Shown here one piece after another: positions 1,829 through 43,278 of a stretch of 64,000 nt of DNA. The notes beneath the pieces are model-generated. The model had not been told where the DNA came from. It did no database searches and saw nothing but the letters and a program-made list of their open reading frames with translations. The stretch lies in NCBI GenBank assembly GCA_030272155.1, contig CP126197.1, positions 868,001-932,000 of the forward strand, in the 5' to 3' direction. A program made the position numbers and the translations under genes. Numbering within the stretch: the first letter of the stretch is position 1; each line of letters starts with the position of its first letter. Origin of the DNA: Tetradesmus obliquus (taxonomy: Eukaryota; Chlorophyta; Chlorophyceae; Sphaeropleales; Scenedesmaceae).

Positions 1829-4800
1829 TCACTGCACGTAGCGCTCCACCTCCTTCCTGAACAGGTCAGGCACGTCCCGCTTCACCCGGAACGGACTGTT
1901 CCAGTGCCAGCCGTACTCAAACTTGCCGTCTGCCTTGCGCGGCGCGTCAAACTCACTGCCAGCGTACCACGTCTTGGCTGCAGCACCTGCCAGCGCTAGC
2001 TCCTTCTCCTCACCCTCACCACCTGATGGCCCAGCATCTGGCCCCGCATCAGGCCCTGCTCCGCCACCGCCGCTGCCGCTGCTGCTGCCGCCGCCAGGGC
2101 TGTTGGGGCCCTCTGGCCGGGGCTTGAATGGGTACAGCAGGCTGCCGTCGTCCTCCCAGCCAAAGCCCACTGTGTAGGGGTCGGGGAAGTGGATGACGCC
2201 GTTGGTCTCCAGGATGTGAGCCACCTCCTTGCCCTGCAGCATCATCAGTCGCGAGCAAGAACAGTGTTAGCAGGATCATGACAGCTGAGAGTCACTGTGT
2301 AGGGGTCGGGGAAGTGGATGACGCCGTTGGTCTCCAGGACGTGTGCCACCTGCTTGCCCTGTAAAGCAGCACGCAGAAACACCAGTGCAGGTGAGCGCAG
2401 TGAAATGGTGTGCACGAACATGTACAAAGTAGCTGCATTGCTGTTTTCCCACCAAACGCAAGGCGCCGTGTGCAGCGCAGGAAGGGCAGCCCTGGAAAGC
2501 ACAAAGCAGACTGCATTCCAGACACAGCCGCCTAACCTGCAGCACGTGCCTCTGCAGCAGCGTCCACCAGCGCCTGCAGCATGCTGTACATCCACCCTGT
2601 ACTTATATGCAGGTTGCCTGCGCAGCAGGCTGTGTACACCCACCTGCAGCACGCCGCGCTGCAGCAGTGCGTCCACCAGGGCTTGCAGCGGCTTCCAGTT
2701 GATGGCCAGCCCGTACGCCGCCTTGGCCTCGGCAGCCTCCAGCAGCTCCAGCACATCGGAGAGAGCCACGCGCGCCTGCAGCAAGGCACAAGTGTAAATG
2801 ATTAGTAAGAAGAAGGCATCAGCATCATGCGGCCTTGGCCTCAGCAGCCTCAAGCAGCTCCAGCACATCAGACAGCGCCACGCGCGCCTACAACAAAACA
2901 GAGGGCGCAAACAGGGTCAGCATCAGTATCAGTACAAAGATCAGGAGCTTGCAGTAGCCTCTACTGGCTCAAGCGCATCAGAAAGCGCCAGGTGCGCCTG
3001 CAGGCAAGCACAGTTGTTAGTATTTGAATCAGCAGCAGCAGCAGCAGCAGCAGTTGTGGCCTCGGCAGCCAGCAGCTCAAGGACATCTGAGAGCACCATG
3101 CGCGGCTGCAGGAAACAGATGGCATGGGTCAAAGTGAGAGTCAGCAAGAGTCAGCAGCGGCAGCAGATCGCAACATTTTCCATTTTTTGCAGCCACCAGC
3201 AGCTTCAGCATAGCAAAATTCGCCACGGGAGCCTCTTCTGACATCTGTGGGCTCTAACCTGCACAGCAGGAACTGTGAGGTATGTAGCTTTCCATCGCTT
3301 TTGCAAAGCATGACAAATAAACTCACCATCTCTGTGGGCATGTCGCTTGCGTGGTAGTAGAACTCCTCCTCTGATGCGTCCTTGGGTTCCAGCGTGCGCA
3401 GCAGGTCGCCGCTGCTGTCCTCACTGGCCTTGGGGTGCAGGCTCATCAGGTCCATGGGACCTGCAAGACCAGGTGTTACAGCAGCATTTGGACATTGACA
3501 GTGTCTTTAGGTGACACCATTGGGTGCAGGCTCATCAGGTCCAGGGGCCTGGGTGGGCACGTGTTGTTATAGCAGTGTTGTGACATGTGTAATATTGTGT
3601 TATCGACAAACAGCAGGGATGCTGTGACGAAATGTGTGGTGATCCACACTGTGTTACGGTCTAACGCTCAGTTGCGTACTTCTGCTTCTGCTGCTGCTGC
3701 TGCTGCTGCTCCTGCCTCACCCACCTATCTTGCGGCCCATGCCAGCACTGAGCACCATCTCCCTCGCCACCATGTTGGCGTGGAACAAGTCAGGAGCACA
3801 CAGCCCAGTCATCTGCAGGCAAAGTGCAGAGCAGAAACGCAAGACATATCAGAAGATGCGGTGCGGCATATGTGGCATGGGAACAGGTGAAGAGCACACA
3901 GCCCTGTCACCTGCAGGCGTACGCAGAAGTAAACACCCAACAGACCCTGCATTTAACAGTTAGTTCTGCAATTTGTGCAACAGTTGGACCCAGATCACCC
4001 AAAAAAATTCTGAACACGCTCTGCCGCACCTCTGCCTCGCCCATGACCATCTTCTCTGCAGCGCGGCCCGCCAGGTGCACCACCATCACGCCTTCCATGT
4101 CGCCGCGAGACAGCAGCGCGTTCGCGCGCGCAGCCTCGTCCTCAACAAACAGCGTGTAGCCTGCGGCACATTCATGCAGAAACACATAACATTGTTGAAG
4201 CGATGATGATAAAAGAAAAATCACAAGACAGGCAGCGGTCTAAGCAGCGCATTAGCGCGCCGCCTCGTCCTCAACAAAGAGCGCGTAGCCTGCGGGGCCA
4301 TACATCTCAGTCAAATCATCTCACAACACGGTTTTCTGCAAATGCAACACCACCTGATTGACACATGGTCAACAATTTCACTCCACCCGTTGTGCGTAAC
4401 GCACCATGCCATGCTATTGGCACGCTATATATGCGTCATAACCCGACACCCGCTGCAGGTCTGCACAGACGCTGCCGGTCAAGATTTGAGGCCCCACCTG
4501 TGATCATGTTGTAGGGGCAGATGCTGACGCGTGCGATCTCATCATACTCGGGCGTGATGTACGCCACCAGCGCCTTGCCGGCCTCATACACTGCGATGGA
4601 CTTGCGCAGGCTGGCAGGGATGGGGTCAGGCAGGCCGCTGTAGCCGGGCTGCGGGGCGCCCGACAGCTCCTATATGTGCAGTGCAGCAGCAGTGAATCAG
4701 ATAACGCCATGTGTGTCAGTGAAGTGTTTTTAAAGGATGGACTTGCGCAGGCTTGCAGGAATAGGGTCAGGGAGGCCGCTGTAGCCCGGCTGGGGCGCGC

Positions 4801-7800
4801 CCAATAGCTCCTGCGGTGCAGTGGCAGCAGTTCAACAACACGTTTTAAAGGGAGTGAAAGGCATAACATGTGGCGTGGCCACAGCTATAACTCCAGACAG
4901 CACCTGCAGCAGCAATGAGGTTGATGTACGGTGGTTCGGAAACAGTTGTTGGTGAAGCATGCTTTTGCGCAGGACGGCCGGGATGGGGTAAGGAAGGCCG
5001 CTGTAGCCCAGCTGAGAGGCACCCGACAGCTCCTGCAAATGCGATGCAGCAAGAGGTTGTCAATTTGCTTAGTTGTGGGTGTTGGCAAGTCACGGAATGC
5101 GGTTGCAGCCCGGCTGGCAATGCGCCCGACAGCCCCTGTGGTCCTCACATGCCAACCTCACATGCTGCAAAGAACGTTTTCCCTGATGCTTACGTACTCC
5201 TTAATCACCTGGAAGGCCTCCATGGCCGCGTAGATGTCCTCCTCAATGATCGCATCCTTAACCCCGCATGCTTGCTGAACCCCACAAACACCTGATAACA
5301 AAAACCCTGAACCCCCAAGACCTAAGCCGCACCTGGAAGGCCTCCATGGCCTTGTTCTCCATGGCCGCGTAGATGTCCTCCTCACTGATCGCCTCCCGCC
5401 CCTGGCGCGCCGCCATGCGCGCAGCACGCGCCATCAGGCCCATGCAGTCGGCACCTGCAGCACAGCAGCAGCAACAACGCAACATTGAAGTTAATGTGAA
5501 GGGTACGTTGTTTCAGAAACAAAACAACGATAGCAGACAATGCAGCATGCACCCACACGCACAACACCGACACAGCCACTTGCGCAGCCCGCCCAGTGTA
5601 TTGCAGTGCCAAAACGAAGATCAGGAGGGCCTGGCGGTTGTGGTGTATCGTATGTGGTTGTACCGGCTGTTCTGTTGGGGCTGTCCCCAGAACATCCGAG
5701 TGTGCCAATTCAGCCTGACAGTTTTGTGCCAGAAGATGGCACGCTACATGCTGTTGAACCTAGCTCATGAGCGCGTCACGCACAGTAGGGTAGTTGTACT
5801 GTCCATTTGCTGCCAACTGCTGGACCTTGCCTTGGAAGCTGCTGCCCAACCCTTCTGGCTATTGATTTGCGACAACATGCTATCTGTTGGTGTGGTTTGC
5901 ACTTAGAGCAAGCTGCCGGTGAGGTGGGGTGCCGTTGCGCACCGCAGTAAGACGTCTCTGGATATAACATGAGAGATTTGGTGCTCAAGGGTGTGCAGTG
6001 TGTTTTACGGTGCTCACTCTCCTTTTGTGGTCTCAGACCTGTGTTCAACCTGTTGTGGCTCATACCTGCGGAGCTTATGTGCCACAACGTTTTGGTCATC
6101 CAAAATAGTGCCAGGACCCACATGTAACTATCCTCTGTCAAAAATTGAGATACATCAGCGTGCCTTGACACCTACCTGTGAAGCCGCTCATGGCGCGGGC
6201 CACCTCCTGCCAGTTGATGGTGGGGTCAACAGACTTGTTGCGCGCATGCACCTGGGGAGGGCAGCAGCAGCAGCGGCAGCGGCACATGCAGTGTCAGCAA
6301 GGAACCTACAAGCGGACGACACGGAGCGCCACTTGGCGTATTGCTTCTGTATGTTCACCTGGCAAAGTCGCTTGAGTGGCTGTCGCTCAAAATTCGCCGC
6401 CCTGTGCAGCTGCACCTTCAAGCTGCGGCGTGCTTGCAAGTTTGCCGTAAACCTCAAACCCCACCAAGCCTGCTGCAAACCTTGCTAGCATCTTATCTGG
6501 TGCAATGAGTTGCAAGGTAACAAGTACAAACAATGCTTACCTGCAGGATCTCTGCGCGTCCTTCTGCGTCAGGCAGCGGCATGTAGATGATGCGGTCGAA
6601 GCGCCCCGGCCTGATCAGCGCAGCATCAATGGCGCCCGGCCTGTTGGTTGCGCCCAGCACCACCAAGCCGCGGTTGTCCTCAAAGCCGTCCATCTGCGGC
6701 ACATTCAGGTTATACCATACTTGAGTGAACAGGGAGAACATGTTTGAGACAGTGGATTGTGCTTTTGCTTGCCCCTGTTGGTTGCGCCCAGCACCACAAG
6801 GCTGCGGTTGTCCTCAAAGCCGTCCATCTGCAGGCAAGAACAAACACAAAGGTGACTTGGACGTTTCGTCTGTTGCCTCACAGAGCTGATGCAGTAGTCC
6901 ACTCAGCTGCGGCCCAATGCTGGTTGGATGGCAGAAAGGCCATGAAAAACCTTCATTCTCTCATTTTGCCCCACATGCAGCAGCAGCTTGTTGAGCATGG
7001 AGGCGCCCAATCGCCCGCAGCAGCAGCAGCCACTGCAATGTTGGACAATACCTGTACGATGTACGGCTGCATTTGAAATCTAACAGAACATAATCAGCCC
7101 ACCTGCACCAGTAGCTCGTTGATGATGGAGGCGCTCTCATCGCCCGCAGCGGCAGCCACTGTGATGTTATAACAATGCCTGTACGATGTAGGGCTGCATA
7201 TGAACACCAACATAATCAGCCCACCTGCACCAGCAGCTCTTTGAGGATGGAGGCGCTCCCATCACCCGCAGCGGCAGTCACATTGATAATTCAAAACCAC
7301 CAGTACGATGTGCGCTACATAAAAAAACAGCAAAAACACATCAGCCCACCTGCACCAGCAGCTCGTTGATGATGGACGCGCTCTCATCACCCGCAGCGGC
7401 AGCACCACGTGCCGCACCCAGCGCATCAAACTCGTCCACAAACAGCACCAAGCACATAAAAAGCTTCCTGGCTCTTCTGGCAGAAACCAACTCGTTGACA
7501 GCTGACACAGATCTGTAACATGCAGCTCACATGCCAGCTGCTGATGGTTCTAAAGCACACCGCAACCGCTAAATAATGGTTTAAATTAATGCCCACCTGC
7601 ACCAGCAGCTCGTTGATGATGGACGCGCTCTCATCGCCCGCAGCGGCAGCGCCACGTGCCGCACCCAGCGCGTCAAACTCGTCCACAAACAGCACCGCGG
7701 GCGCAAAGTTGCGCAGCATCTCAAACGTCTCGCGGATGCGACGCGCGCCCACTCCGGTGTACACGTCGTAGAAGTCCGTGCCTGCAGGCAAAAAGCGACA

Positions 7801-8728
7801 AGGTCGCAGCAGCAGGTTTCAAGGCTTTGCACAACATGCAAGGGGTCAGGGATAATGCACATTGACGCCCGTGTACACATCATAGACGTCCGTGCCTGCG
7901 AGGTTCAGGGAGCACGGGGAAGCGTAAGAGACTTGACCGTTTTGCAGCAATTGACATATGGGGCCCTGTCAAGTACTGTGACTGCAGCTTACGCTTTACC
8001 CAACATGCCTACGGCAGCAGCAGCAGCAGCAGCAGCTCCGGGCTCACCGGAGCAGGTGAACATCTTGCCGCCGCTCTCCGATGTGATGGCCTTGGCCGGC
8101 AGCACAGCCAAAAGCTTGTAACACGCAGATTACAGTTACACAAACATGTGCAAAACACCGCTCACCTGAGCAGGTGAACATCTTGACGCCGCTCTCTGCT
8201 GCGATGGCCTTGGCCAGCAGCGTCTTGCCTGTGCCGGGGGCGCCCGCCAGCAGCACGCCACCGATGCGGCTCACACCACGCAGCCGCAGCAGCGCTGCAA
8301 TGAAAAAGGACAACAGCGACAGAGCAGAACACGATTTTATTGGGCTGTGTAAGGCCAAGCACAGCAGCAGCACGCCACCGATGCGGCTCACGCCACGCAG
8401 CCGCAGCAGGGCTGTGAACAGACAGATACATCACGACAGCAGCGACAGCGACACACATCTGTTGGGAGATATTCATTATACACTTCATGTAATGCGCAAA
8501 GCGTACCTGCAGCTGCACACACATTGAATATTCTCCGGTTGTGCGGCCCAGGTAACATGCAACAGTTGTTGGTCAACGGCCCTGTAGTTGTACCGCAGGG
8601 TTTTGCTCACCAGGGTTTTTGAGGTAGTCGATGATCTCCTCAATTTCCGCCTTGACCTCATCGATGCCGTTGATGTCGTCCCACCCAATGAACTCGGGCC
8701 CGCTGGTGTCGATGAACACCTGACACGC

Positions 8729-8759
<31 letters not shown>

Positions 8760-10318
8760 GCACGGTTACACACGTGTTGCAGGGTTGCTAGTGACAGCTG
8801 TGTCCGCATGATGCCCGGAGCTGGTGTCATCCCACCCAACGAACTCGAGCCCGCTGGTGTCGATGAACACCTGCATTGTGGGTGGCAGCAGAAAATGCAG
8901 CGATCGTACATGATCCAGAGGCGCGGTAACACGGCCTTCTGAGGCAGCAGCAGCCTTACAAGCACCATCGGTACGCTACGTGCTGACGACATCCCATCCA
9001 ATTGACACTGGACTGCTTGTGGACACTGGATACCTCGAGCAGCAAGCAGCGTAAGTGCAACCTGAGCAGCGAACAACTGGAGGTGCATACAGAACATGCT
9101 CACCTAGTGCTGCCATCCAGCTCACCTGGAGCGCAACATAAGGTTTAAGCTTTGAGCCCAGGAGCAGTTGCAAACCGAACAAAAGATACCAACATTATCA
9201 ATGTAACGTGTATGCAGCTCACCTGGCGTGCCGGGGACCTGAAGTTAAGCTTGGTGCCCAAGCGCAGGATCTGTCCGGGTAACTGCTTAGTCCCTGCCGT
9301 CCAAACAGCAGCTACATTTTGCAGAAGTATAAGAGCAACCGGCGGCTCCTAAGCTGCCCATCGCCCATCTTGCTCACCTGGCGCGCCGGCGACCTGAAGT
9401 TGAGTTTTGTGCCCACGTGCAGGATCTCCCGCCTGTAGCGGATGAACTCGCGCCGCCGGAACTTGTTGGGCACCGGGTCCAGGATCCAGGTGTGCAGCAG
9501 CCAGAAGATTGCGGAGATGGCCACAAAGGGCATCGTGTAGCGCGCGATCTGTATCAAGGCACATGGGAGAATACAGCACAAGTAGTCAGGCACCGGCATG
9601 CAACTGCTGAAGCACAGTTCGTGTAGCGCGCGATCTGCAGCGCAGCGTAGATTGTCACGCAAAACAGCTGGCAGTTAGGCATCCAGCGGTTGAAGTGTAT
9701 CGCGTAAATGCTGCTGGGCATAAAGGCAACCAACAAGAAGCAACCTTGCTTGTTCCTGCATGCGCTGCGCTGCCTGCATGAGGAAGGCTCCCTGCAGCCG
9801 GAACCATACAATACAATATGATATGATATAATATAATATAATATAATATTAGTAATATAATATAATATAATATTAGTAATATAATATAATATAATATAAT
9901 ATAATATAATATAAAAAGTAACAATATAATACATACTAATAATATACATATAACCTTTTGACCGTTCCTGCAAGCCCTGCCCTCACTTGTATGAGGAAGG
10001 CGTGCTGCAGCCTGTCTCCCTCATAGCTCGCAGCCCTATCAACCATTCCTGCAGATCCTATCCACCAAAACCCGGATCAGCTTGTGAGGTAAGCAGGTGC
10101 TGATTCAGCACGCACCTGTATGAGGATGGCGCCCTGCAGCCTATATGTCCCCTCAAATCGTCAAGGATATCACAATCAGATTCAAACAGCGCACCACGCT
10201 GAGCTCACCTGAATGAGGAATGCGCGCTGCAGCCTGTCTCCCTCGTAGCTTGTGTGAGTCAGCATTACGCCGTGCAGCAGCAGGTGCTCCGCCAGGTCGG
10301 GATCAGGCGCCAGCACCA

Positions 10319-10360
<42 letters not shown>

Positions 10361-13300
10361 CGCCAACTCTCAAACACAAACGTACACCTGTTGTTATCGT
10401 CTTGAACATATAGTGACCTGGACACAGCACCGCTGCCAGCAGGTGGCAGCATCACCGATCACCACATACAGTTGTTGCCTCTAGCAGGTGCAGGGAACTA
10501 GTACTGCCGAGCAGCACAGCAGCACAGCATGCACATGCGCCTCACCTTGCACTGGCGTGCGCCGCCTGGCGCGCTGGCCTTGAGCGTGACAATGGCTGCG
10601 CTCTGCTCGGGGCCGTACACGCGCAGCGCGTCAACATGACCCTCGCCCACCAGCGTCCTGCAAGTCAGAACAAGCAGCAAGGACCGCGGGAGTAAATCCA
10701 GAGCTCCATTGTAACGCAACGCTAGAGGTGCAGTGCATGGCCCTCGCCCACCAGCGTCCTGCAAGCCAGAACAAGCAGGGAAACAAAGGACGCAGCTGTG
10801 TACTTCAAGGAGTTGGGGCGTACACGCGCAGCGCGTCAACATGGCCCTTACCCACCACTGTCCTGCGAGCCAGAACAAGCAGAAATACACAAGTCACAGC
10901 CCTACAACTTGAAAAGGATCGACCCCATACACGCGCAGCGCGTCAACGTGGCCCTCGCCCACCAGCGTCCTGCAAGTCAGATCAGGCAGCAAGGACCACG
11001 GGAGTAACTTCAGAGCTCCATTGTAACGCAACGCAACGCTAGGGGTGCAGTGCATGGCCCTCGCCCACCAGCGCCCTGCGAGCAAAAACAAGCACAATCA
11101 TTATGAGCACAGCAGCTGAAAGTTCTGTACGACAAAACTCGGGGCCATACACGCGCAGCGCGTCAACGTGGCCCTCGCCACCCAGCATCCAGCGAGTCAG
11201 AACAAGCAGAATCAGACACAACTCACAGCCACATTGCGTGTTTCGAACCACTTGTCATGTGCAAATGTGCCGCAGAACATATTAACATCCGATGATGCAG
11301 GCGAGTTGTTGGAGCAACATAATTCCTTGGTTGCCGGCTACGTGGGCACATGGCGGCATTGCATTGCAGCTGGGAACAAGCACGGCCTCCAAGACACCTA
11401 GTAAGCAAAAAGCGGTTATTGGTTGTGCGTCCAATATTGTGCGTCCAATGTGGAGCGTCAACCCAGGTGTACCAGAAAGAGCAATCACAACACAAACTCG
11501 GCACATGTGTTGCCGTCGATCTGGTATGGGAAGTTAGCCTAGGTCATTCAAGAAAGTTGAGCTCAACTCAATTTCCTTGATGACCTAGGCTGGCCCCCAA
11601 ACCACATCAACGACATCACTTTTGCCGAGGGACATGCTATGATTCTATCTCAACAAATCCATGTAGGTTTCCGCCAGGCTGCCTCCACTCACGAGCTGCA
11701 AAAGCAGCATGGCAAGAATCAACGGGTGATTGGCAAGCAATGCCAGGGCGCTCAAAGACAAGACATGCATGCAGTTGTACATGCAGCTGAGTTGCTGGTC
11801 TAGCGCTGGTTGATCCTGGCGGCAGCTCACTCAAGTGCAATGGTCTGACAATATGCTAACAGAAACTGCTTCAGAGTGCGCCACCGCCAAGCTCAACCAG
11901 TGCTACACCGGCCCAACAACAACCCGACCACGGCCAAGCAGCTGGCTCTGCTGAAGCGCCTGGACTACTATGGACCCACACCCAAGTCACCCATCGATGC
12001 GCCCAAGGCAACCAACAGCCTGCTGCAGAAAAGCAGTGTAGCCACGCCAAAGCACTTATCATTCATCAACATGCTTACTCTGCTTGCAGGCACAAACACA
12101 GACCCAGCAAAGCTCACCAGCAAGCTGCGCCGCCAGCGCCGCCACCGTTGCCGCCGCCAGTGCGGTGCAGGTTTGCCTTGTACATGAACATCAGCAGCTT
12201 GCTGATTTCCAAGTACAAGACACACATGCACGGCACTGACGAGCGGCAACGGCGGCGGTGCTGACGGCAGGGGCTGTAGTTGGTGCCGTGGCAGGGCCAA
12301 CCGCCGTGGCAAAGGCAGGGGCGGGCGCCATCGATACCATCACCGTAAACAATGTGGTAATGCATGCACCCTGCAGCTGCCCTGCAAACAATATAAAAAC
12401 ATTCATACATTCAAAAACAACCCTCAGAACTCACCACAGCTGTGTGTAGCTCAGCTCCTGCAGGTGCTCCTGCACACGCCACGCGGTGCGCAGCGAGGCC
12501 TGCGGGCCCACCACCATAGCCGCCTCCTCCATCTTCTCGGTGGTGAAGGCATCTGTGCCGATGTCGCTGGAGCGCACCTGCAGGTGCGAAATGACATGAT
12601 ATTAACAATAAAGTAACAAGACTGCCAGGGGTCAACATCATGGCCACCGCCTTCATACCCTACCATGTCATGATTGGGCGCACCTGGATCACATCGAATC
12701 AAGTTGGTTTTATGTCTCCAAAGCCCACCTGGATCTTCTCGCCGTCCCCTTCATCGCCAACAGCTGCTCTGCCAGCTTCTCCTCAAACTCCTTGGCTGAC
12801 CATTGCCCAAACCTTTAGTCACATCAATCCAACAAACAACAAGGCCTTAGGCCCACCTGGATCTTCTCGCCGTCTCCCTCACCCGCAAAAGAGCTGCTCC
12901 GTCAGCTGCTTGTCAAAGTCCTTGGTGTCGCCTCTTTGACCAGACCACGCACAACACGGAAATGACAATAGTAACAGCGCATTAACGCTCACCTGGATCT
13001 TCTCGCCATCCCCTTCATCAGCGAAGAGCTGCTCCGCCAGCTTCTCCTCAAAGTCCTTGGCGTCACCTTTCTTGTCAAGGCCGTCCTCCATCTCCTGCTG
13101 GATGGCCTGCAGCAGCAATATTAACATATAACACAATTAAATAACATTTACTTCAATACAAGGCATGTCAGCAAGGTTGAACACTTGGTCAGGCAATCTT
13201 CTATCTCCTGCTGGATGGCCTGCCAGTAACAGTTTACACCACACAGCATGGACCAGCAAGAATCTGTCACACCACGTGCACAAGGCTTTGTCTTTCACAA

Positions 13301-28577: not shown

Positions 28578-30352
28578 ATGGCGCCCACAGGCAATCAGCT
28601 CGCGTGCCCGCAGCAAAACGCCCACGCCATAGACCACACCCGTCCTTGTCTCGCAGCACCTCTCTGTGGTAAGGCCAAAGCTTACACGTCAAGAAATATT
28701 GTGCTTTTAGTTTACTTTCCGCTTTGTGCCAATGAGCAGCAAATATGTACGTCCAGGGCTGGGAGTGTTCAAACAACGTGTGTGCCCCTTCATATCTGCA
28801 GGCTCACAACCGAGTCAAGACAGCAGGAGCGCAGATCACGACGCTATGCCATCCTCTGTGCGGCTGTGGTGCCGTTTGCAGCAGCCACAGCAGTGCAGCC
28901 TGCTGCCACAGCAGCAGCAACAACAGCAGCAGCAGTAGCAACATCGTCATGGCCAGCAGTCATCCTCAGCTGCGGAGTGTTCATCCTGTGCTGTGCTGCA
29001 GCAGCGATGCTGCTATCTGCTATCCCACTGCTGTGGTCTATGACCAAGACAACAAACCGCATGGAGAGTATGCTGCAGGTGCGCCGCACTCCATGCCAGG
29101 CCAGCCTGCCTCTTGCCAACCCTCAGCAGCAGCACTTCCATCTGTCCTATGTCAGACTTGGACGCTCTTTGCATGACTCAGCAACGGTGCATTCCAGATC
29201 CAGCAAGACACAGCGGTTGTGCAGCCCACACATATAGTGTCTGCCGCAGCATCACATACGCGCCTCACCAGCACACAAACAACCCTCTTCTTGCAGGCGC
29301 TAGATACGGAGCTGCCTGACACAGAAGCCAGCATGCAGCTTCAACCTAAAGCAGCAGCACTGTTCACTGTTCACTGCGCAGGGATGACGTGAACGCGCAG
29401 TTGGCGTCCTAGTAGTGCAACAGCAGTACAGTGTGCAAGCATCCTCCTGTGTGCATTGTCTACGCTGAATATCCACACGTGCGCCTTGCCGGATCTCTCC
29501 TGCAGACCCTTGAAACGGAGCTGCCAGACACTGCAGCCAGCATGCGGCTGTCATCCTTGGAGCTTTCAGACTGCCTGGCGGAGATGGGCGCACTCGGCAG
29601 CGACCTCAGCTCAGGGCTGAGGGCCTCAGCTCGGCTCGCGAGTGCGGCTGAGTTGGGTGTGCGGCAGGGCGCGCTGCTGCTGGGGGCGGGGGTGGTGCCT
29701 GTGCTGGCACGCAAGGAGACGCAGCTGCGAGGTGCGTGAATTCCTCACCGGGTTGATTTGTGGTGATCCATTTCATAGCAGGTGGTCCAGCATGTTATGT
29801 TTGCGCAAGGTTATGGGCCAGCAGCTGATGCCGAGGATCGATGCGTATTCCTGCACGCAGGTTCTGTATGCACAAGCAAACGTGCCAATTGCTTGCAGGG
29901 CGCTGAGCGTGCAGCACATGCAGGCATGTGTTGCTGTGCGACAGGACTCCTGTTGCTAGCCCCCGAGACCTTGCCTTCTGTGCGTGCCTGTTGCAACTGC
30001 TGCAACTGCAGATGTGGTGGAGGCGGCTCTCAAAGCACGAGTTGAGTTAGAGCCTGAAGTGCGCAAGGCACGGGCAGCAGTGCTGGGTGCAACTTCAAAC
30101 GCAAGGCGTGCTCGTGGCGCGCTGCTGCTGGCGCGGCTTGCAGGAACAGCAGTGAACCTGGGCAGAGCAGTCAGGGGCAGCCTTGCTGCAGCAGCAGCGC
30201 AGCGCATTGCAGAGCAGGAGGCAGCAGCAGTGATGGAGTCTGCGGCACTGCGGCGCTGGCAGCAGCAGCAGCAGAGGTCACGCGGCAGCAGCCCCAGCAG
30301 GAACAGCAGCAGCAACAGCAGCAGCAGTCAACCGCGTGCCAAGCCAGCTTGA
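28578..30352 (+). CDS. Probable plastid membrane protein (plant DELPDT-motif family)
   Basis: Confident exons are 28802-29078, 29506-29731 and 30012-30352, in phase. A candidate first exon with ATG at 28578 ends at a GTAAGG donor at 28669 but does not join in phase, so the start is uncertain. The N-terminal part is Arg/Ala-rich like a transit peptide, followed by a long hydrophobic segment (VILSCGVFILCCAAAAMLLS). Next come T(L/V)ETELPDT.ASMRLSSLELSD, a stretch matching the ELPDTMAA(V/I)RLS-type motif I recall from plant plastid transmembrane proteins (DUF948-like), then a helical region. The C-terminal exon is predicted helical (DVVEAALKARVELEPEVRKA) and ends in a Gln/Ser-rich basic tail. Function is unknown in the plant homologues as far as I know. 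Confidence 0.6.
29290..29342 (+). repeat. Copy of the 5' edge of exon 29506-29731
   Basis: An acceptor followed by LDTELPDTEASMQL lies about 210 bp upstream of the real TLETELPDTAASMRL. The frame closes soon after. Confidence 0.85.
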
Positions 30353-31020: not shown

Positions 31021-33882
31021 ATGTCGAGGCCTGGAAGCAAGGGCCTTGGTGCTCTTTCAGTAAATGGCAGCACACCACCTACGCGTTCTGGAGTTCGGAC
31101 TAGCACAGCATCGAAAACGGTAGGGGTGAGCGGGCTGGCCCTGTAGTGACATCTACCTGGCACTTGAGCAGCAGCTCACAGGCATTTCGCTTGTGCACAC
31201 AGGCAAAAGCAGCAGAGAGCCCTTTAGAGGCTCTGACACACGCGTTAATAAAGAAGATGCGGGAACGCTTTGGGGTGAGCTCAACAGCGATGTGCATGCC
31301 TATGTAACTTGGCCTGCACATGCGCAGCACCCACTTGCTGCCTTGTGCTGCTCAGCAGCAGTAACGCATGCAGCCTGAGGACCTTGCACGTGCCTGCATG
31401 TTACAGGAGGTCAGCAATGACGTGGCTTCACAAGAAATCATCGCCAAGGAGGTGACAGAGTTCATGCTTACAGCAGGCAGCGTACGGGTGAGTACAAACT
31501 ACTGCTGGGTGGTGCGACAAGGCACAGCAGCACAGCAGCAGCTGCTCCCTTGCTCTGGGATGCCCGCAAGTAGCATCTGCATGAGGCAGTTGTACCGTTA
31601 CACTGTACTGGTGATATCAGCCGGCTGATTGGAGGTCACACTGCTTTCATCAGCAGCACCAGCCAGCAATGGCAGCACACCTTGCGTATCGCCCAGAACC
31701 AGCAGTTCATGCGTCCTCACCGTGTGCATGCATCCACTCGTCTCAACAATATACCCTGTGCCAGTTCAGCTGCAGATGTATGCAAGCCATCTGCGCTGCC
31801 TGTACATGCCTGCATCTGCTTTGCATGTTGCCGCGCGCTGATGCTGCTGTGCAATGCTGCTTGCAGGAGGAGGACCTGTCGCACCTGGAGGATAAGATCA
31901 GGGCACGGCTAACAGGCGAGACGCCAAAGTGAGCAGCAGCAACAGAAGCAGCAGCAGCAATCTCAACTGCATCAGGTACTGCAGCACCAGGAGTGCAGCA
32001 CAAAATGACCAAAGTCTGGCAAACAGCAGCAGCTCTTGGCAGAGCAGCAGCAGGGCAACAACCAGTGCCGCCAGCTTCCTTTCTTGAAGCGAAGCGACGG
32101 CAGTGCTAGGCAGCACGGCACGCACTGCATAAATGAGCAAACCACTTTCACACCCTCAATTGCATGCTGTGCACGCACTCACCACCTGCTGTCGACGTCA
32201 CTGCTGTCCACTGCCCCCTGCAGCCGCAACACGCTGGCCAGCCTGAAGCGTGCGCAGCAGCAGGGCGATGAGTGGGCCAAGATCTACGCGCTGCACATCA
32301 AGGAGGGCCGCGAGCTGGACGAGAAAGCAAAGCAGGCGGCAGCGGCAAAGGCAGCAGCATTAAAGCAGGTGCGGGCGGAGCTGCAGCATGCAGAGCAAGG
32401 GCTGTAGCAGCAGCAGTAGCAGCAAGGTTGCTGTGCATGCCATGGGACGGTAACAGCCAGGCTGTGGAGGTCAGCAGCAGGTGCACAGGAGCTGCAGCAG
32501 CACATGTCAGGCGACAGCAGCTGGCGTAGTTAGTAAAACTAGCACACATACGTCGCACCTTGCAGCAAGCTGTCAGCTTGCACTGTTCTGTCGTGACTGC
32601 ACCTATGCTTGCCGTGTCTTGTTCTTCATTTTGAAGCCGCCACACCATGCTTGACAGTAGCAAGCTCCCAATGCCTCTTCTGCTCACATCCCGATTGTAC
32701 TTGTGTGCTGCTGCGCCAGGTGCTGGCGGGCCAGGTGGCTGACCGCGCAGCCAAGGAGCAGCACGAGAAGCAGGAGGAGCTTGAGTATGCAGCACAGGAG
32801 CAGGTGGGGCGGCATTGCAGGAACTACCAGCAGATGCTTCCAGTGCTGCAGGCAGCTGGCAGCAGTCACAGGCAGCAGGCAGCACATGAGGCGGTGATAT
32901 GCCGGGGTGGACACCCGGCATCAGCAGCATGTGCGCTGGTGTGCAGCACGCATATGCTTGGCCTAATCATTGACAGCTGCTACTTCAACAGCAGTGTGTA
33001 TACAGATGTGAGGAGGGAGGTTTGTGCTGGAGCCATCCTGTACCACGGTGGCACTAGTGTTCTTCATGCTTGCTGCAGGCTCAGCTGCGTGAGTGGGAGG
33101 CTGCTGAGGCCGCCAAGCGCGCAGCGGAGCGGGAGGCTGCACTGAGGCTCAAGGGCGACAGGGCAGCACAGCTGGCAGACAGAAACATGGTGAGCAGGGC
33201 GGGATGCGGCTCAGGAGTGTGACTCTAGGTGGCTGTTGACCTGGTTGCTATTTTGCTGCCTGCAATGGGACTTCGCGGCAACTAGATGGATTCGTCAGTG
33301 CTGCACCACCTTATGTGCTGCTGCACTCAACGAATGTTCATCGGTGCCGCACTGCGGCTGCTGCTGCTGCTGGCTGCAGCGCAAGCGGCTGGCTGACGAG
33401 AAGCGCGCGGCTGAGGAGGCTGAGCTGGCGGCGCGGCTGGCGTACGAGGCGCGCGCCGAGGCTGAGGCGGAGGAGGCGGAGCGCAAGGCGGCCAAGGAGG
33501 CGCTGAAGGCCTTCCTGCTCAAGTGAGTGTAGAGAGGTTATCTGTGAAGCTATTCAAATGCAGATTGCTGGGCTCTGCTGTCCCAGCTATGCTGGTGTGC
33601 TGTGTGGTGTCAGAGGAGGCGGAGCGCAAGGCGGCCAAGGAGGCGCTAAAGGCCTTCCTGCTCAAGTGGGTGTTGAGGGTGGTGACACATACAACTGTAT
33701 GCAATGGCAGCAGCTGTGCCTTTTTGTGCTGAGCTATCCTTGCTAGCATTTTTGTGCGATGACAGCTGACTGCGTTCGGACCACTTCAATCGGCAGCAGT
33801 ACTCCTGTTCGGCCCAGCAGGCAGGCGTGTCCGTTGGCCGTCAATCCGCTGAGACACAGTGGCTGTTCCTCACGTGCAACAT

Positions 33883-33928
<46 letters not shown>

Positions 33929-36038
33929 ACTCTGCCTCCACTGCAGCAACGAGAGCCTGAAGGCCATCAAGGAGGCGGCCAAGCAGCAGGAGTGGGCGGC
34001 CGACAAGGCCATCATGGAGGAGTACGCGGCGCAGATGGAGAAGCAGGAGGCGGCGCGCAAGGCGCAGGTGCGCGGCAGGCAGGCCTATGCGCGGCAGCTG
34101 TTGGTTGGTGCTGTTTGCTGTACATGTCAACTTGGAAAGCCTGCAATGCAAGCCTGTGGTCCCTCAGGCCGTTAGTATGTGCAGCAAGTATTGGTTCAGT
34201 TGTCTGGTGTGAGTTACTGTCTGAGTGAACCCAGACGCACCAAGTTTGATCATCTGCTGCTGCTGGTGCTTGTCCCTGCAGGTTGACAAGCTCAAGGCGT
34301 GGCAGGCAGCGCAGGAGCGGGAGGCGGCTGTGCGGCCAGAGGCCAAGCGCTGGATAGACCCAGCCATAGTGGAGCGGTGCGTGTGTCCTGCAGGACTGCT
34401 ACAGTGTCCTGTGACGTAATGTAATGGTGTCTGCGTCATTGCAGCGCTGCTGTGCCCTCCAGCATGGATGCTGTACCACAGCCGGGGCCGGGCACTGCTG
34501 GGTGGCTGATCACGTGGTGCCACAGTCAGTAGCGGCAGCAGTCGCAGTTGCAGTTGCATGCCACAGATGCAGCAGCTGTCCATCTTGCCGACTTCAGCAC
34601 GATTCTTGGGTGCCACGTGCGTCAGAGTGCAAGGGACGCTGTGTCCACCATCATGGTGCCAACCTTCCTCGGTCCTGTGTGTCGGCTGCGTGCCGTTCAG
34701 GTACACGCGTGAGGCTGAGGCTGCTGCTGCCGCTGAGGATGAGCGGCGCAAGGCTGCTGTCAAGGCCAGCAGCAAGGTGCTGGCGGCCAGCCTGGCTGAG
34801 CAGCTGGTGCTCAAGGAGAGCCTGAAGCACGCGCACGACGGCGAGGAGCAGGTGAGCCTTTTCTGCAGGCTCTCCCTGTGCTGTAATACGTATGTTGTGT
34901 GGTGGTGATGGCTTGTGGCTGCCTGCTGCCTGCAGGCTGCCAGCTGTGCTGCTTGAGGAGGCTGCGTAGGCGGCACAGCCGCTGTCGGCTGCTGCAAGCT
35001 CTTCTTGACTGCTGCCTTTTGCATGTTTGCCTGCCGCCGTATTCCTGCAGGCTGCCATCCCTGCGCTGAAAGAGGGTGTGGCTGCGGAAGCGTCGCTGTC
35101 ACTGTTGGCTCCTGCAAACGCATCTCACCTGGTGTCTTTTGCATGTTTGCCTGCCGCCGTGTTCCTGCAGGCTGCCATCCGTGCGCTGAAAGAGGGCGTG
35201 GCTGCGGAGGCATCGCGGCGTGCTGCCGAGAAGGCCGCGGAGGAGGCCAAGAAGGTGGCGCTGAAGGCGGCACTGGAGCAGCAGATGAAGCTGAATGCGA
35301 CTCGCAGGTGCGCTGCGCTGCCAGCGGGTGGATGGTCTGCGTCGCTTGTATGTGGCTGTTCAGGGGCGTTGTGTGTGGCGTTGTGTGTGGTGCTGGAAGC
35401 GGCGCTGAAGGAGCAGATGAAGCTGGAGGTGGCACACAGGTGGGGCCTGATGAAGTGCAGTCGGTTTCATCTCATGTCTGTTGTGTGTCACGTGACACTT
35501 GGCTGCGCAGGTGGAGAGCTGCGCACCCTTGTATGATCCCGTGGGCACCACGACGGTATGCACTTTGCCATGCACAGTGCTGGGGGACCTGCTGTATTTT
35601 TTGCTACCAGGGGGGACGCAATCCTACTGGCTCGCTACCACAGCACAATTGGGCAAGCCCAATTGCCAGGAGCGGGAGGCAGTGCCTCACCAGCAGAACA
35701 CGTCACAACCTGCTGTACTTGATACTTCGCTGTGCTGGGGGACTGCTGCCCTGCAGGTTTGTGGCGCCCATGAGTGAGACCGAGAGGCTGACCATTGCTG
35801 GTTCAAAGTTTACATGTACAACTGCCACGATTTGCTAAATGAAGCTGTTGGGTTGCTGCTGTGCTGCAGGATTGTGGCGCCCATGAGTGAGACCGAGAAG
35901 CTGATCAACACGCAGCTGCTGGAGAAGGTGGCACAGGCAGGGCTCGGGCAGCTGGGGGCAGCAGCGGCAGCAGCAGGGCCCGTGGTGCGCACCAAGACAG
36001 CGCAGCAGCAGGCGGCAGCAAAGTCGGGCCGGGTATAA
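31021..36038 (+). CDS. Charged coiled-coil protein, possible flagellar (TPH-like) protein
   Basis: Thirteen exons join in phase to 489 codons including the stop: 31021-31119 (or -31125), 31203-31274, 31407-31487, 31867-31928, 32224-32368, 32720-32803, 33079-33189, 33380-33522, 33947-34067, 34282-34376, 34701-34851, 35171-35307, 35870-36038. The start MSRPGSKGLGALSVNGSTPP is short and basic. From exon 2 the protein is almost entirely Ala/Glu/Lys/Arg-rich helix with heptad character, e.g. RLADEKRAAEEAELAARLAY and YAAQMEKQEAARKAQ, with invariant-looking RWIDPAI and a C-terminal PMSETEKLINTQLLEKV. This composition and the closing motif resemble trichohyalin/plectin-homology proteins of ciliary doublet microtubules, but I cannot assign a specific FAP/CFAP. 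No membrane segment or signal. Confidence 0.7.
33608..33668 (+). repeat. Copy of the 3' edge of exon 33380-33522
   Basis: EEAERKAAKEALKAFLLK and a GTGGGT donor recur about 145 bp downstream of the exon with one silent change. Confidence 0.9.
35045..35103 (+). repeat. Copy of the 5' edge of exon 35171-35307
   Basis: The acceptor and AAIPALKEGVAAEAS recur about 120 bp upstream; the preceding intron (TTGCATGTTTGCCTGCCGCC) is duplicated exactly. Confidence 0.9.
35392..35443 (+). repeat. Copy of the 3' edge of exon 35171-35307
   Basis: LEAALKEQMKLEVAHR with donor recurs about 130 bp downstream of ALEQQMKLNATR. Confidence 0.8.
35750..35803 (+). repeat. Copy of the 5' edge of the last coiled-coil exon
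   Basis: The acceptor CTGCAG and FVAPMSETERL recur about 115 bp before IVAPMSETEKL. The copy is in the right phase to be spliced in, but would end the protein at a stop 20 codons later (35837). Confidence 0.9.
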
Positions 36039-37422: not shown

Positions 37423-37512
37423 AAGACCACCACAGCAGCAGCAGCCTCCAAAGGGCATGCGCAGCGGCTTTCTTGGCAGCAGCCCACGCCAGCAGCAACC
37501 CGCGCAGGCTGT

Positions 37513-37558
<46 letters not shown>

Positions 37559-37745
37559 GAGTCACACCTTGAAGAGGGCTTGGCTGCTGCCAGGGGGCTG
37601 CAAATGCTGTGGATGGCCCTTACACTACGAGAGCCCACCCCGGCATTCAGTGTAGCTCTGTTTGGCGATGCAGCGCTGCGTGCATCGCTGCTACCAGCAG
37701 TCAAACTCATCCTGGTCACGCTGCAGGCGCAGGGCCGCCCTGCAG

Positions 37746-37789
<44 letters not shown>

Positions 37790-38254: not shown

Positions 38255-38739
38255 ACATTTATTATCAGTGTATGCTTCCTCACTTGAATCGTGGTGTACT
38301 ATTGCTGTATGTAGCAAGTCAGCCGCAACGTCTGCTTGAGGCGTTGCAGTATCCTGATGCTCGGCCACAGATGCTGAGCCTTTGGCAGCGCTGAAGGCGG
38401 TCGTAGCAGGTGATGCTACAGCCTGGCAGAAACCCTTGGGATGTTTCGAGTCTTGTGCGTTCAGCAATATAACCTGTTTGTATATATATGTATCGCTGGT
38501 TGCTTCACCATAGCTGAGCGCCATGTTTGCTGGAAGGGCGCCAAGTTGAAGAGCGAAGCGTCCAGTGCGTGATGCTTCAGCAGACTTCTCGTTTATTACT
38601 ATTACCTACGACATGTAACTAAATATAGACTCGCACGCACGTTCTGTGCAGCAGCTCGTCAGCAAAACTGAAGTTGAGCAGCACAAGTTGGAGGCACAAA
38701 AGGCCCCTGTGAACGAGTTGAAAACTGTTTAAAGTCACC
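38255..38739. other. Intergenic, no gene recognised
   Basis: Short space between two plus-strand genes. No supported coding sequence. Confidence 0.4.
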
Positions 38740-39403
38740 ATGGAGCTCAACGGGGCGGCAGCCATGCGTCGAAGCAGTGGCAGCCCCGTGCAGGAAAGCC
38801 ATGCACAGCACAGTACAACCTGGCGAAGCAGCAGTAGCGCCAGTGGCGCAGCAGGCAGCCTGAGCACCCTGAGCAGCAGCTCAGGTGGTACAGCAAGGCT
38901 CTCTTCTGCCTCTGGGATGTCTGGAAGCACAGCAGCAGCATGGAAGCGGCTGAGCATGACAGACAGCAACAGGCCACCCCCTTCTGCAGTTGCACCTTAC
39001 CTGGCAGGTAGGTGTGTATGTGGAAGAGCACATCAACCACACATTGGCATGCAGCTGATGAGAAACGGATATGAGGCCAGGTTGAGGCTCAGGCTGGCAG
39101 AAACCTCAACTTGCTGTGTGATTCAAGAACTTCCAGCTGCTCGGCTGAAGTACAGATGCATCTGCAGCCAGGCATACATAGCCTGCCTGTGCCTCAAGCA
39201 CAACACAGGTGAACGTGCCACCTCAGCTACCTTTCCTGCTTTCACTCCTTCCCTCCACATTCATCTTGTTGCTGCTGCTGCTGCTGCTGCCGCCATGCAG
39301 GCCCAGCTGTGGCGTCATTCGTGGCCAAGCGCACCACCCAGAAGGCTGAGCTGGTGCAGTACTATGAGGCCCACAGCTTGTGCTGCCTCCTCACACACTC
39401 GTC

Positions 39404-39475
<72 letters not shown>

Positions 39476-42400
39476 CCATGCAGGCCCAGCCGTGGCGTCC
39501 TTTGTGGCCAAGCGCACCACACAGAAAGCTGAGCTGGTGCAGTACTATACGGCCCACAGCTTGTGCTGCCTCCTCACACACTCGTCTTGCTGCTGCTGCT
39601 GCTGCTGCTGCTGCGGCTGCTGCTGTTGCTGCTGCTGCTGCTGCCGCCATGCAGGCCCAGCCGTTGCCTCATTTGTGGCCAAGCGCAGCACCCAGAAGGC
39701 TGAGCTGGTGCAGTACCTGGAGGCCCACAGCGGCTCAGTCAGGGCCATACTCAACAGCGGGGACGGCACCACAGCAGATGCAGCACAACAGCAGCAGCTG
39801 CAGCAGGCTGGAACAGATGAGTGCTGGTATGGTAACGCAGAGCTGCCGCTGCGTGGCAGCGACGCATGTGTGTCGCCATGTGCTGTTGTCAACAGTACTG
39901 CTGGCATGGATGCCTTGTTCAACAGCAGCGGCACCTACCGCCGCTCTAGCCAGGTGGCTAGTCCCACAGCAGCTTCTCCTGGCAGTACTGGCAGCGTGTC
40001 TCCTAGCAGTGCAGCAGCCCGCAGAGCCTCAGTCAGCGCTTACCCGCAGCGGCAGCAGGACCTAGCCACCACTGTCAGCACTGGCGTGCCCTATCTAGAC
40101 AGCACAGGCAGCAGCCCCAGATCTCCAAAGCTGCTGCGTGCTTCTGATGCAGCAGCAGGCGGTGGTGGTGCGGGTCAGCCTGTGGCTAGTAACAGCAGCA
40201 GCAGCAGGCACACTGTGATCAAGGAGGCACTGGCTGCACGGCTGAGCGATGCAGCTGAGGCACGGCCTGGCTGGGCAGGTGCAGAGTGGGGGAAGCTTGC
40301 AGGAGGACGCTGGCTGAAACAGTTTTGCAACATGTGTTTTGAATGCACATCAAATGCGGTATCAAACACTTAACTTTGTGGTGTTTTGTTAGCTGCGGCA
40401 GATCGTCTGACACGGGCATGCCAAGATGTGCTTCACGCTGCCGCTGCTGCTGCCACCGCAGCTGCGCAGGCCAGCTACACAGGCCCTGGCGGCAGCTGGC
40501 CCCGCATGCATGATCAGGTGTCAGGCGTCATCATGCTGCTGCACTTGACCCTGCTGCTGCTGCTGATGCCGCACCTGCCTTTTTGTTCCTGCTGCTGCAG
40601 CGGCGCGGGCTAGCTATGCAGGCCCTGGCAGCAGCTCGCCCCGCATGCACGACGAAGTCTCTGGCATCCGCCAGAGCCTGCTGGCAGAAGGGCGTGCTCG
40701 CAGGGCCTCCACCACTGCAGTTGCCGGCAGCAGCAACTCAGCTAGCCAGGCTGCTGCGATGATCGCGCGCAGGCTGAGCAATGCAGCGATCTACCCTGGC
40801 GCTTACGATGCGACTGCTGCACTTGGCATTTGTGGAAGCAACTATGACAGCCAGCAGCAGAGCTGGGAGGCAGCCAACCTTGGGAGCTTTGCTAGGGATG
40901 AGCAGGGCAGGGTGAAGGTTGGAGACTATGGCAGCATGGGCTCGCTAAACAGCAGCATGGCTGCAGCTGGGCAGGGCTTTGCAGGAAACTTTGCAGGAAA
41001 CTTTGCAGGACAGCAGGGTACGGCCGGCGGCAGGATGGTGGTTGGTGATGGAGGTGGTGGCAGCGGCGGTGTGTGGGGCGGCGACAGCAGCGGCAGGAGG
41101 AGCAGCGGCAGCAGCAACAGCAGGTCAAGCAGCGATGATAGTGAGGGTGACAGCGAGTCATCCAGTGACGAGGATGACGCAACAGCAGGTGCAGGTGCGA
41201 CCGGGTGGAGCGCAGGGCGGCAGAAGCCTAGAGTGAGTAGCAGGCGAGGTGGCTGGAGGGTGAATGAGAGGGCAGCTGCCAAAGCAAGGGCCTCGATCAG
41301 CAGCAGCAGCGGCAGCGGTGGCACTGCTGCTGCTGCTAGAGCTAGCATGATGACCGGCAGAGCCTCGCGGCGGTCCCTGCTACAGCAGCCGCAGACGACT
41401 CGCGCTGTCAGGAAGCCGGAGCGGCAGGCAGCTGCGAGCTTGGCAAGAGCAGCTGCTGCCAGGCGCAGTAGCATTGGTGCTAGCCAGCAGGCCCTAGCTG
41501 CTGCTGGGCACGGTAGACAGCATGCTACTGGCAGGTTGTCCATCAGGCGTGGCGCTGGCGGTCGTGCTAGCAGCAGCAGTGGCAGCAGCAGGCGCAGCAG
41601 CGGCAGCAGCAGCGACGCCAAGACAGACATATTTGAGCTGACGGTGCGGCGCAGGAGCAGCATCACCACTGGCAAAGGGTTCCTAGGTGAGTCCTTCTCG
41701 CTGACCAGAGAGTGAAGCAGAGGAACCCATGTTGATGTTCAAGGCTTTGGGCAGTTGCATATTGGTTGTCTGCTGCTACTGGCTGCGCCAGCTCAACTGT
41801 TTTACTTTGCTAGTTTTCGCATGTACTCCTGCAGCCCTTCGTACATGCCAGCGAAGCGCGTCCAAATGGGCCTAAGTTGCTCTTGTATTCATATACTTGC
41901 CACCTGTTGCTGCTGCGCAGGGTCACTTCCAGCCAAGAACAGGGCCAGCAGCAGTGACAGCAGCAGCAGCGACAGCAGCCATGGCAGCGACAGTGACCAT
42001 GACGACAGCACCAGCCGCCGCCCCGCCAGACGCCCTTCGCTGCCACTGCGGCGCCGCAGCAGTGGCAATGCAGCAGCATCTGGTACTGCTGCTGGCCGCA
42101 AGTCTCAAGTCATCCGCCGCCGGCTGCTGCTGCGACTGCGCAATGCGCACAGCAGCAGCAGCAGTGGTGGCGGCAGTGGCAGCAGCAGTGGCAGGAGCAG
42201 CACAAGCAATGGTGAGGCTGGGGGTGGCCGCCGCAGGCTAGTGAAGCAGCGCAGCAGCATCAAGTATGGGGGAGCCAGGTACAACAGGGCCTCAAGCATC
42301 AAGCGACAGTCAGCTGCCCATACTGCTGCTGCCGGTGGTGTCAGGCGCAGCAGCGTCAATGCAGCTGCAGCAGCAGCGAGCCGCGCGAGTGCATTCGGCA

Positions 42401-43041
42401 TGGGCATGCGTCACAGCGCGCGCATCTCAGCTGCTGCCAGGCTGCGTGCTGCTGCCAGCAGCAGCGGCGGCAGCACTGGCAGCAGCAGCAGCGGCGGCCG
42501 GCGGCTGAGCAATGCACTTGAGGTGTTCCTGAACCCTGATGACAAACCCTCACACCGGCTGAGCTGCAGTGCTGGCGATGCTGCTGCTGTTGTGATGGGA
42601 CCAGCAGATGATGCAAACAGCAACAACAGTGATGAGGACGGCCGCATCCTGCCAGCAGCCAAGAGCAGCAGGAGCAGCCGAGCCATGCAACAGGGGCATC
42701 AGCAGGGTGGTGGTGAAGTTGGCAACCGGCCAGGGCTGCGTAAGTCGTGGTCCAAGGTGTACAGAGCAGCAGCCAGGAGCAGCGTCGCAGCAGCAGCTGC
42801 CCCGCGTGCATCTACCAGGCAGCAGCAGCGTGCGTCTGGCGCCATGGTGAACGGGGCCAGCCTGCGCAGGGGCTCTGCGGTTGCTGCGCGGCGTTCTAGC
42901 AGTGGGGGGCTTGGCGTTCAGGGCAGTGGAGGCATTAGTGCTGCTGCTGCTGGGCGTGGTGAGGCTGGCAGGGAGGCGAGCTGGGTGGCGAGTGTTGTGC
43001 GGCGGCTGTCCGGCGTGGCGCCTGGTGGCATGGGCATGTGA
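38740..43041 (+). CDS. Ser/Arg/Ala-rich disordered protein with many basophilic kinase-like sites
   Basis: The ATG at 38740 is in CACCATGG context. Exons: 38740-39007, 39655-40278, about 40393-40517, about 40610-41686, 41921-43041; the third-fourth join is ambiguous because the exon edge ASY(T/A)GPG.S.PRMHD(Q/E)VSG exists twice. Exon 2 starts PAVASFVAKRSTQKAELVQY, the only part that looks like a folded helix. The rest is low complexity: Ser runs, acidic stretches (SDDSEGDSESSSDEDDA), and more than a dozen R-R-x-S or R-x-S motifs (RRSSI, RRLSN, KRQS, RRRSS). These match the consensus for AGC-type kinases, but this is only a motif count. No family is recognised; a nuclear or cytoskeletal scaffold is possible. 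Ends RRLSGVAPGGMGM. Confidence 0.55.
39297..39552 (+). repeat. Two copies of the 5' edge of exon 39655-40278, each after a CTG run
   Basis: AVASFVAKRTTQKAELVQYY occurs at 39301-39366 and 39485-39550 before the real AVASFVAKRSTQKAELVQYL. Each of the three is preceded by a CTG run (39270-39290, 39406-39472, 39588-39645) and an ATGCAG acceptor. Period is 170-185 bp, set mainly by the CTG run lengths. Confidence 0.9.
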
Positions 43042-43213
43042 GGGCACTTCATGCCTTTTCTTTATTATGGAGCGCCTGCTCAGGGCCAAGCAGAAGCCAC
43101 CAACTGGCTGGCAGGCTGGAAGCGTCAGCGCTTTGCAGGAGAACGCTGCTGCTGCTGCCAGGCGGTCAAGCAGTGGTGCCAGGCTGGGTCACATCAGCAT
43201 TGGTAGTGTTGGG

Positions 43214-43278
43214 GAATGGTGAGGCTGGCAGGGAGGCGAGCTGGGTGGTGAGTGGTGTGGGGTGGCTGTCTGACTGGG
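43214..43278 (+). repeat. Copy of the coding 3' end beyond the stop codon
   Basis: The sequence for GEAGREASWVASVVRRLSG (42957-43014) recurs about 255 bp downstream, after the stop, with mutations that close the frame. The same type of duplication therefore also occurs outside introns. Confidence 0.75.

Follow-up and report, generated by a model that had tools for sequence, protein, structure and literature searches.

Exon-edge copies within the introns of the green alga Tetradesmus obliquus

Introner elements are present as copies of one element in many introns of a genome. Many introns of one genome are likewise affected in the green alga Tetradesmus obliquus, where a stretch of 64,000 nucleotides (the window; G000:C7:868001-932000 of a 104.66-Mb, 17-contig genome) carries copies of exon edges inside the adjoining introns. 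Unlike introners, each of these copies derives from its own exon, and multi-copy, near-identical introns were not found: two spacers lying between copy and exon were searched, and each matched only itself.

Three further systems come close. Firstly, an intron can be gained when coding sequence that contains a proto-splice (AGGT) site is duplicated in tandem (PMC2891723). As described there, this resembles the T. obliquus case in that a local duplication repeats splice signals while the mRNA is unchanged. However, the AGGT unit lies inside an exon and creates a new intron, whereas in T. obliquus the unit spans an existing junction and lengthens the intron, repeatedly and at many edges. Secondly, the neointrons of Daphnia, in the account of PMC4202315, have an exon-edge direct repeat at the far end of the intronic sequence, and repeated events lengthen introns. 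The 40 copies in the window are direct exon-edge repeats set apart by a spacer in the same manner, but their exon parts measure 21-110 nt, where the Daphnia repeats are 4-12 bp and belong to new introns. Thirdly, direct repeats of 4-30 bp (mean 11.4 bp) near intron borders have been tied to intron insertion across life (PMC11782384); the T. obliquus copies share this position at or near the exon-intron border, and are serial and one-sided. A published description of the T. obliquus pattern was not found in searches of an open-access library, which is weak evidence of absence, as most subscription papers lie outside that coverage.

Number, sidedness and anatomy of the copies

Gene models were derived from the window sequence. 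Two of them (FtsHi and g4) were checked against homologues, while the partial genes g2, g3 and g5 (plus strand, from 23339, 28803 and 38740) were modelled by open frames and GT-AG junctions alone. Listing matches at a Smith-Waterman score of at least 36 and using corrected models, 40 exon-edge copies lie within 21 of the 37 introns of these five genes. An earlier interpretation made from the letters alone (the sequence-only reading) had proposed such copies in at least six genes on both strands; the copies and their presence on both strands are borne out, with five modelled genes in place of six.

The copies are strictly one-sided, as that reading had claimed. In per-edge tests, made at a score of at least 40, 25 of 74 edges had a copy on the side predicted, none of 64 had one on the wrong side, and reverse-strand copies were absent (Fisher p 1.8e-8). 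These totals, previously 76 and 66, exclude a 45-nt pseudo-exon of g4 that leaves the frame unaffected; the flank, codon-position, shuffle and mid-exon analyses used the first g4 model, in which it was included. Of 19 mid-exon probes, two found a match, and both came from exons whose edge copies are long (FtsHi exons 3 and 12). Shuffled probes (20 each) did not reach a score of 40 in any category in the window. Self-comparison of the window gave 93 direct and no inverted repeat pairs with starts at most 3 kb apart, one 45-bp minisatellite included. The real exon is single and in frame, and several edges have a series of copies, in keeping with a repeated process.

The pattern is widespread in the genome, because it recurs in 20 sampled loci of 10 kb at fixed positions across the 17 contigs: here copies lie on the predicted side at 31 of 239 edges and on the wrong side at five of 185, and none is reversed. 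Exons in these loci came from a self-trained gene finder, trained partly on manual exons, that recovered 75 of 86 manual edges; exons and introns below 40 nt were dropped. Four of the five wrong-side cases fall on predicted exons of 57-72 nt, and two concern the same exon. For a joint collection, introns below 60 nt and scores below 40 were dropped and CAG/CTG runs masked, which retained 38 of the 40 window copies and added 50 copies from 11 of the 20 loci. In the window and sampled loci together, there are 198 direct but only 3 inverted repeats at distances of up to 450 bp (simple repeats excluded). Full-unit tandem arrays also occur in predicted noncoding DNA (129 bp at 97.5% in locus L020 and 137 bp at 81% in L012), although some repeats classed as intergenic in the sampled loci are probably unpredicted exons. 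Copies also lie beyond the stop codons of two genes, FtsHi and g5, and thus a splice site is not essential; at the ends of the g4 and g3 coding sequences (CDS) the downstream scores, 21 and 34, remain under the threshold.

The exon parts of the window copies have a mean identity of 91%, and in 38 of the 40 the match ends no more than 5 nt short of the exon edge. At the inner ends, an AG or GT, or a partner splice site, is not consistently present (judged by eye). The copies are therefore not wholly exonic units with an acceptor/donor pair at their ends, as in AGGT intron gain. Nor are they complete alternative exons with both splice sites, of the tandem or mutually exclusive type: at least 90% of the exon is covered by none of 38 window copies and by four of 50 in the sampled loci. 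An unbroken splice dinucleotide is retained by 37 of the 40 copies, in two of which it was assigned by projection because the match stops 14 or 24 nt before the edge; the copies do constitute decoy splice sites, as had been proposed. The further claim that they bear some intron is less well matched, since most share little intron beyond the signal. The inner breakpoints are abrupt; past them, similarity to the exon is at the level of mispaired controls (p 0.73; 39 of 40 copies testable).

The distance from the exon to its nearest copy has a median of 132 bp and falls within 89-155 bp for 50 of the 61 edges (window and sampled loci). In the window, introns with copies have a median length of 427 bp, against 292 bp for those without (p 0.008), and copy number rises with intron length (Spearman 0.56). 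This agrees with the proposed lengthening of introns, although more sequence is also searched in a longer intron.

Origin of the copies

One explanation is simple tandem duplication of a segment spanning the junction, after which the decoy merely decays neutrally, and the sequence-only reading had taken the pattern to be exactly what such duplication gives. It accounts for the sidedness, the clean inner breakpoints and the young full-unit cases, of which the window has a 122-bp array (6970-7403, FtsHi exon 12) and a 183-bp array (39266-39731, g5). The intron flanks do not fit it well. Unanchored, flank similarity exceeds the 99% level of mispaired controls in just five of 40 copies. With anchoring and gaps, p falls below 0.05 in 13 copies and below 0.5 in 32, and this residual homology points to duplication of the flank as well. 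Across the window and sampled loci, an intron match of at least 20 nt is seen at six of 39 well-defined edges, and the outer ends gather at the splice site instead of being scattered at random. Where exon identity is at least 0.93, the intron match is lost (at most 8 nt) in 10 of 15 pairs, while simulated neutral decay expects 3-20%; at identities of 0.89-0.93 it is lost in 60% of 15 pairs, against 13-30%.

The codon positions also speak against decay alone. At 26 window edges (one copy per edge), copy and exon differ at 0.061, 0.061 and 0.178 of first, second and third positions, a ratio of 2.94 (bootstrap 2.06-4.31), whereas by our estimate neutral decay of a copy should give at most about 1.8. 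There is a single stop among 85 nonsynonymous differences. Similarity does not fall with distance, contrary to the earlier suggestion that decay grows outwards (rho -0.08, p 0.62; the farthest copy is less similar than the nearest in four of seven series). Simple duplication with decay is, taken together, unlikely.

Preservation as alternative or regulatory splice elements would explain the intact dinucleotides and the few stops, as well as a deposited FtsHi model (P0001) in which one exon tail stands three times in frame. Among the seven series with several copies, the changes that only the nearest copy has are distributed 5/3/15 over the three codon positions, a third-position bias that selection would also produce (farthest 9/6/14, middle 1/1/3, exon 0/1/7; the numbers are small). 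However, the inner ends have no consistent partner site, gaps in 11 of 40 copies shift the frame, g4 homologues lack the copies, and those past stop codons have no splice role. Selection is an improbable cause.

Staggered double-strand breaks, with fill-in and unrelated filler, are a known mechanism in the account of Daphnia (PMC4202315), and here they would require far longer overhangs. Spacers of 46-105 bp in 22 of 38 window copies are compatible with this, as is the lack of a second genomic match for the two spacers searched (simple repeats and common words skipped). By the same search a source of the filler was not found, and foreign filler was set aside. The weak in-register flank homology, the clustering of outer ends at the splice site and the few-base-pair repeats of Daphnia also count against it, and the explanation appears quite unlikely. 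Exon-precise RNA copying as the main cause was set aside because of the same flank homology; old copies patched by gene conversion were rejected, as the inner ends have no residual similarity.

It has been reported that T. obliquus is diploid with extensive heterozygosity (PMC12636532, where a phased diploid UTEX 3031 genome is also cited), and its draft genome was given as 208 Mb, against 109 Mb for UTEX 393 (PMC5552973). Both reports favour the reading set out below, in which diverged alleles may take part. The diploid, heterozygous state might also point to an assembly artefact. This is very improbable, as up to four or five copies form one series, some copies are frameshifted or truncated, and another deposited T. 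obliquus protein has exon-3 tail copies in tandem.

What is shown is that local direct duplications are common in the window and the sampled loci, with the nearest exon-edge copy typically at the distances given above. On balance we consider it somewhat probable that such duplication is recurrent and that most visible copies are old or come from a diverged allele of this diploid alga. Of the duplications at an exon edge or stop codon, those survive that keep one unbroken coding edge, and tolerance limited to such cases accounts for the sidedness. The second edge remains in the intron as a decoy, mostly with its splice dinucleotide, the intron grows, and recurrence at one edge builds a series. 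Fresh whole-unit copies, about equally similar in intron and exon, would form an intramolecular class. Most surviving copies, we infer, did not arise by recent duplication of an identical molecule; their source would be old duplications, or joints between two alleles with diverged introns and undiverged exons. In the latter case, the match would end at the splice site and the differences would look coding-like because the introns of the alleles had diverged and the exons had not. This extra step, whether through diverged alleles or through long survival of the copies, is preferred with moderate confidence. In yeast, flap-processing mutants yield errors of similar size flanked by short repeats.

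Several points weigh against this reading. Firstly, at 35 edges of the sampled loci the codon positions differ by 0.068, 0.055 and 0.113, a ratio of just 1.82 (bootstrap 1.2-2.91), which could arise by neutral decay alone and favours simple tandem duplication; in the subset where the edge is reached and the site is intact (21 edges) the ratio is 2.80 (1.53-5.23). Secondly, whole-unit pairs have diverged about equally in intron and exon, so introns are not simply faster. Thirdly, the FtsHi proteins of T. obliquus are very similar to each other, with two residue differences between residues 212 and 1000; allelic silent divergence is thus probably well below the roughly 18% third-position divergence between copy and exon, and living alleles alone would be insufficient. 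Finally, homology of 21-110 nt is a poor substrate for recombination.

It is tempting to speculate that exon edges are hot spots. As the alleles would agree in their exons but not in their introns, repair between homologous chromosomes would halt where exon meets intron and form a joint displaced by about 125 bp, so that the exon edge of the other allele enters the intron. This is a tentative idea, and on present evidence a doubtful one; if it were true, introns would be records of allelic recombination.

Ages, homologues and consequences

Copy formation seems to have been spread over a long period. Three of the five copies of FtsHi exon 7 extend to codon 401, and all three have Val, as do the exon and the homologue P0003, while P0001, P0002 and P0004 have Leu; if Leu is ancestral, Val is probably derived and these copies would be younger than the change. 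P0001 and P0002 are presumably from UTEX 393, and P0003 from UTEX 3031. The exon-3 tail, present three times in P0001, occurs in the window once, with one decayed copy. That copy may predate the split of the strains, because it has a Ser in common with a copy inside P0001. The continuing activity suggested earlier is supported by the Val401 copies, by the extra copies in P0001 and by a 44-bp unit repeated at 100% identity. The Glu of the g4 exon 12 copy is also found in the homologues P0121, P0123 and P0124, while the exon and P0122 have Gln. In FtsHi and g4, 65 of 69 nonsynonymous codon differences occur in the copy only, and protein data thus neither prove nor exclude an allelic origin.

P0122, of 427 amino acids, joins the real g4 exons without the copies. 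It comes from a contig of 1,625 nt, and the matching stretch of g4 exceeds 4 kb; it is therefore taken to represent spliced RNA, and the copies would normally be spliced out. The deposited model P0001, in which copies are included, points the other way.

Intron lengthening has mostly been deduced from dead sequence. In the window, 21 of 37 introns hold a legible one-sided copy or series for which the exon is a fixed reference, and local duplications could thus be measured for their size, their rate and how well they are tolerated. Exon-edge duplication is a candidate cause of the long introns of T. obliquus, for which a table in PMC5966456 gives a mean of 462 bp, compared with 230-302 bp in four other green algae. 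The decoys can also mislead gene models. The 45-nt segment of g4 at 35511-35555 has GT-AG borders and an open frame, but in P0121-P0124 exon 12 is followed at once by the exon at 35870. Another such error is perhaps the exon tail that P0001 has in triplicate.

Gene models, coordinates and other repeats

The genes and copies are listed in Table 1. The FtsHi protein joined from the window exons is 99-100% identical to T. obliquus proteins in a protein search, and its homologue P0002 contains the Pfam families AAA and Peptidase_M41. An active M41 protease carries the HEXXH motif. In the M41 region of the window gene (4498-4669), a different stretch of 11 residues occupies that position, so that the protein looks like an inactive FtsHi. 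For g4, the matches listed in the homologue search include no protein named T. obliquus. For g5, a search at 1e-40 gave no match, and the last exon was positioned by open frame only.

Table 1. Genes and exon-edge copies in the window (source edge in brackets where given)
Feature	Positions	Strand	Remarks
FtsHi gene (AAA+ ATPase / M41-like), 21 coding exons	1829..15697	-	GT-AG at every junction; exon-by-exon match with P0002
FtsHi exon 3 3' edge	13659..13769	-	Ser in common with copy in P0001
FtsHi exon 5 5' edge	13184..13219	-	
FtsHi exon 5 3' edge	12857..12946	-	
FtsHi exon 5 3' edge	12729..12804	-	
FtsHi exon 7 5' edge	11138..11189	-	with Val401
FtsHi exon 7 5' edge	11053..11073	-	
FtsHi exon 7 5' edge	10925..10969	-	full 312-bp unit; with Val401
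FtsHi exon 7 5' edge	10815..10857	-	with Val401
FtsHi exon 7 5' edge	10736..10758	-	
FtsHi exon 8 3' edge	9988..10028	-	
FtsHi exon 9 3' edge	9223..9272	-	
FtsHi exon 10 5' edge	8801..8870	-	
FtsHi exon 11 5' edge	8365..8409	-	98%
FtsHi exon 11 3' edge	8050..8103	-	
FtsHi exon 12 5' edge	7865..7895	-	
FtsHi exon 12 3' edge	7350..7449	-	97% across 100 nt
FtsHi exon 12 3' edge	7225..7277	-	122-bp array
FtsHi exon 12 3' edge	7103..7156	-	122-bp array
FtsHi exon 12 3' edge	6976..7036	-	122-bp array
FtsHi exon 13 5' edge	6774..6827	-	
FtsHi exon 15 3' region	5218..5257	-	stops 24 nt before edge
FtsHi exon 16 5' edge	4965..5032	-	
FtsHi exon 16 5' edge	4736..4810	-	
FtsHi exon 17 5' edge	4243..4289	-	
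FtsHi exon 18 5' edge	3870..3909	-	
FtsHi exon 19 5' edge	3522..3547	-	
FtsHi exon 20 5' edge	3057..3104	-	
FtsHi exon 20 5' edge	2829..2887	-	
FtsHi exon 20 3' edge	2537..2580	-	
FtsHi exon 21 5' edge	2293..2358	-	95%
FtsHi CDS end (1890-1917)	1757..1784	-	past stop codon
Gene g2, first three exons	23339..25189	+	open frames and GT-AG; Pfam: no match
g2 exon 3 5' edge (25032-25075)	24736..24779	+	
Tandem duplication of 44 bp	24819..24909	+	very young; 100%, 2.1 copies, across splice junction of a copy
g2 exon 3 5' edge	24841..24865	+	
g2 exon 3 5' edge	24885..24926	+	
g2 exon 3 3' edge (25138-25195)	25258..25315	+	downstream copy
g2 exon 3 3' edge (25102-25187)	25469..25555	+	second downstream copy
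Gene g3, last three exons	28803..30352	+	open frames and GT-AG; Pfam: no match
g3 exon 5' edge (29509-29557)	29300..29347	+	
Gene g4, coiled-coil protein, 13 exons	31021..36038	+	homologue-checked; pseudo-exon removed
g4 exon 8 3' edge (33470-33522)	33613..33665	+	98%
g4 exon 12 5' edge (35171-35216)	35051..35096	+	full unit: intron flank similar too
g4 exon 12 3' edge (35255-35293)	35387..35425	+	Glu for the Gln of the exon
g4 last exon 5' edge (35872-35907)	35759..35794	+	
Gene g5, first two exons	38740..40278	+	open frames and GT-AG
g5 exon 2 5' edge (39655-39731)	39301..39377	+	array of unit 183
g5 exon 2 5' edge	39484..39560	+	full unit similar
g5 CDS end (42957-43041)	43217..43303	+	past stop codon; last exon by open frame only

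Other repeats are present as well. An AT-rich repeat of the ATAAT type lies within an FtsHi intron (9806-9914). The 45-bp minisatellite (18242-19234) has 22 copies at 98% and long open frames on both strands. A 30-bp unit is repeated 3.9 times at 100% identity at 44194-44310, and a CTG-rich tandem array with units of 79-170 bp occupies 51185-51833. Among the sampled loci, L022 has a long array (1-3959) with a shift of 274 bp and 95% identity.

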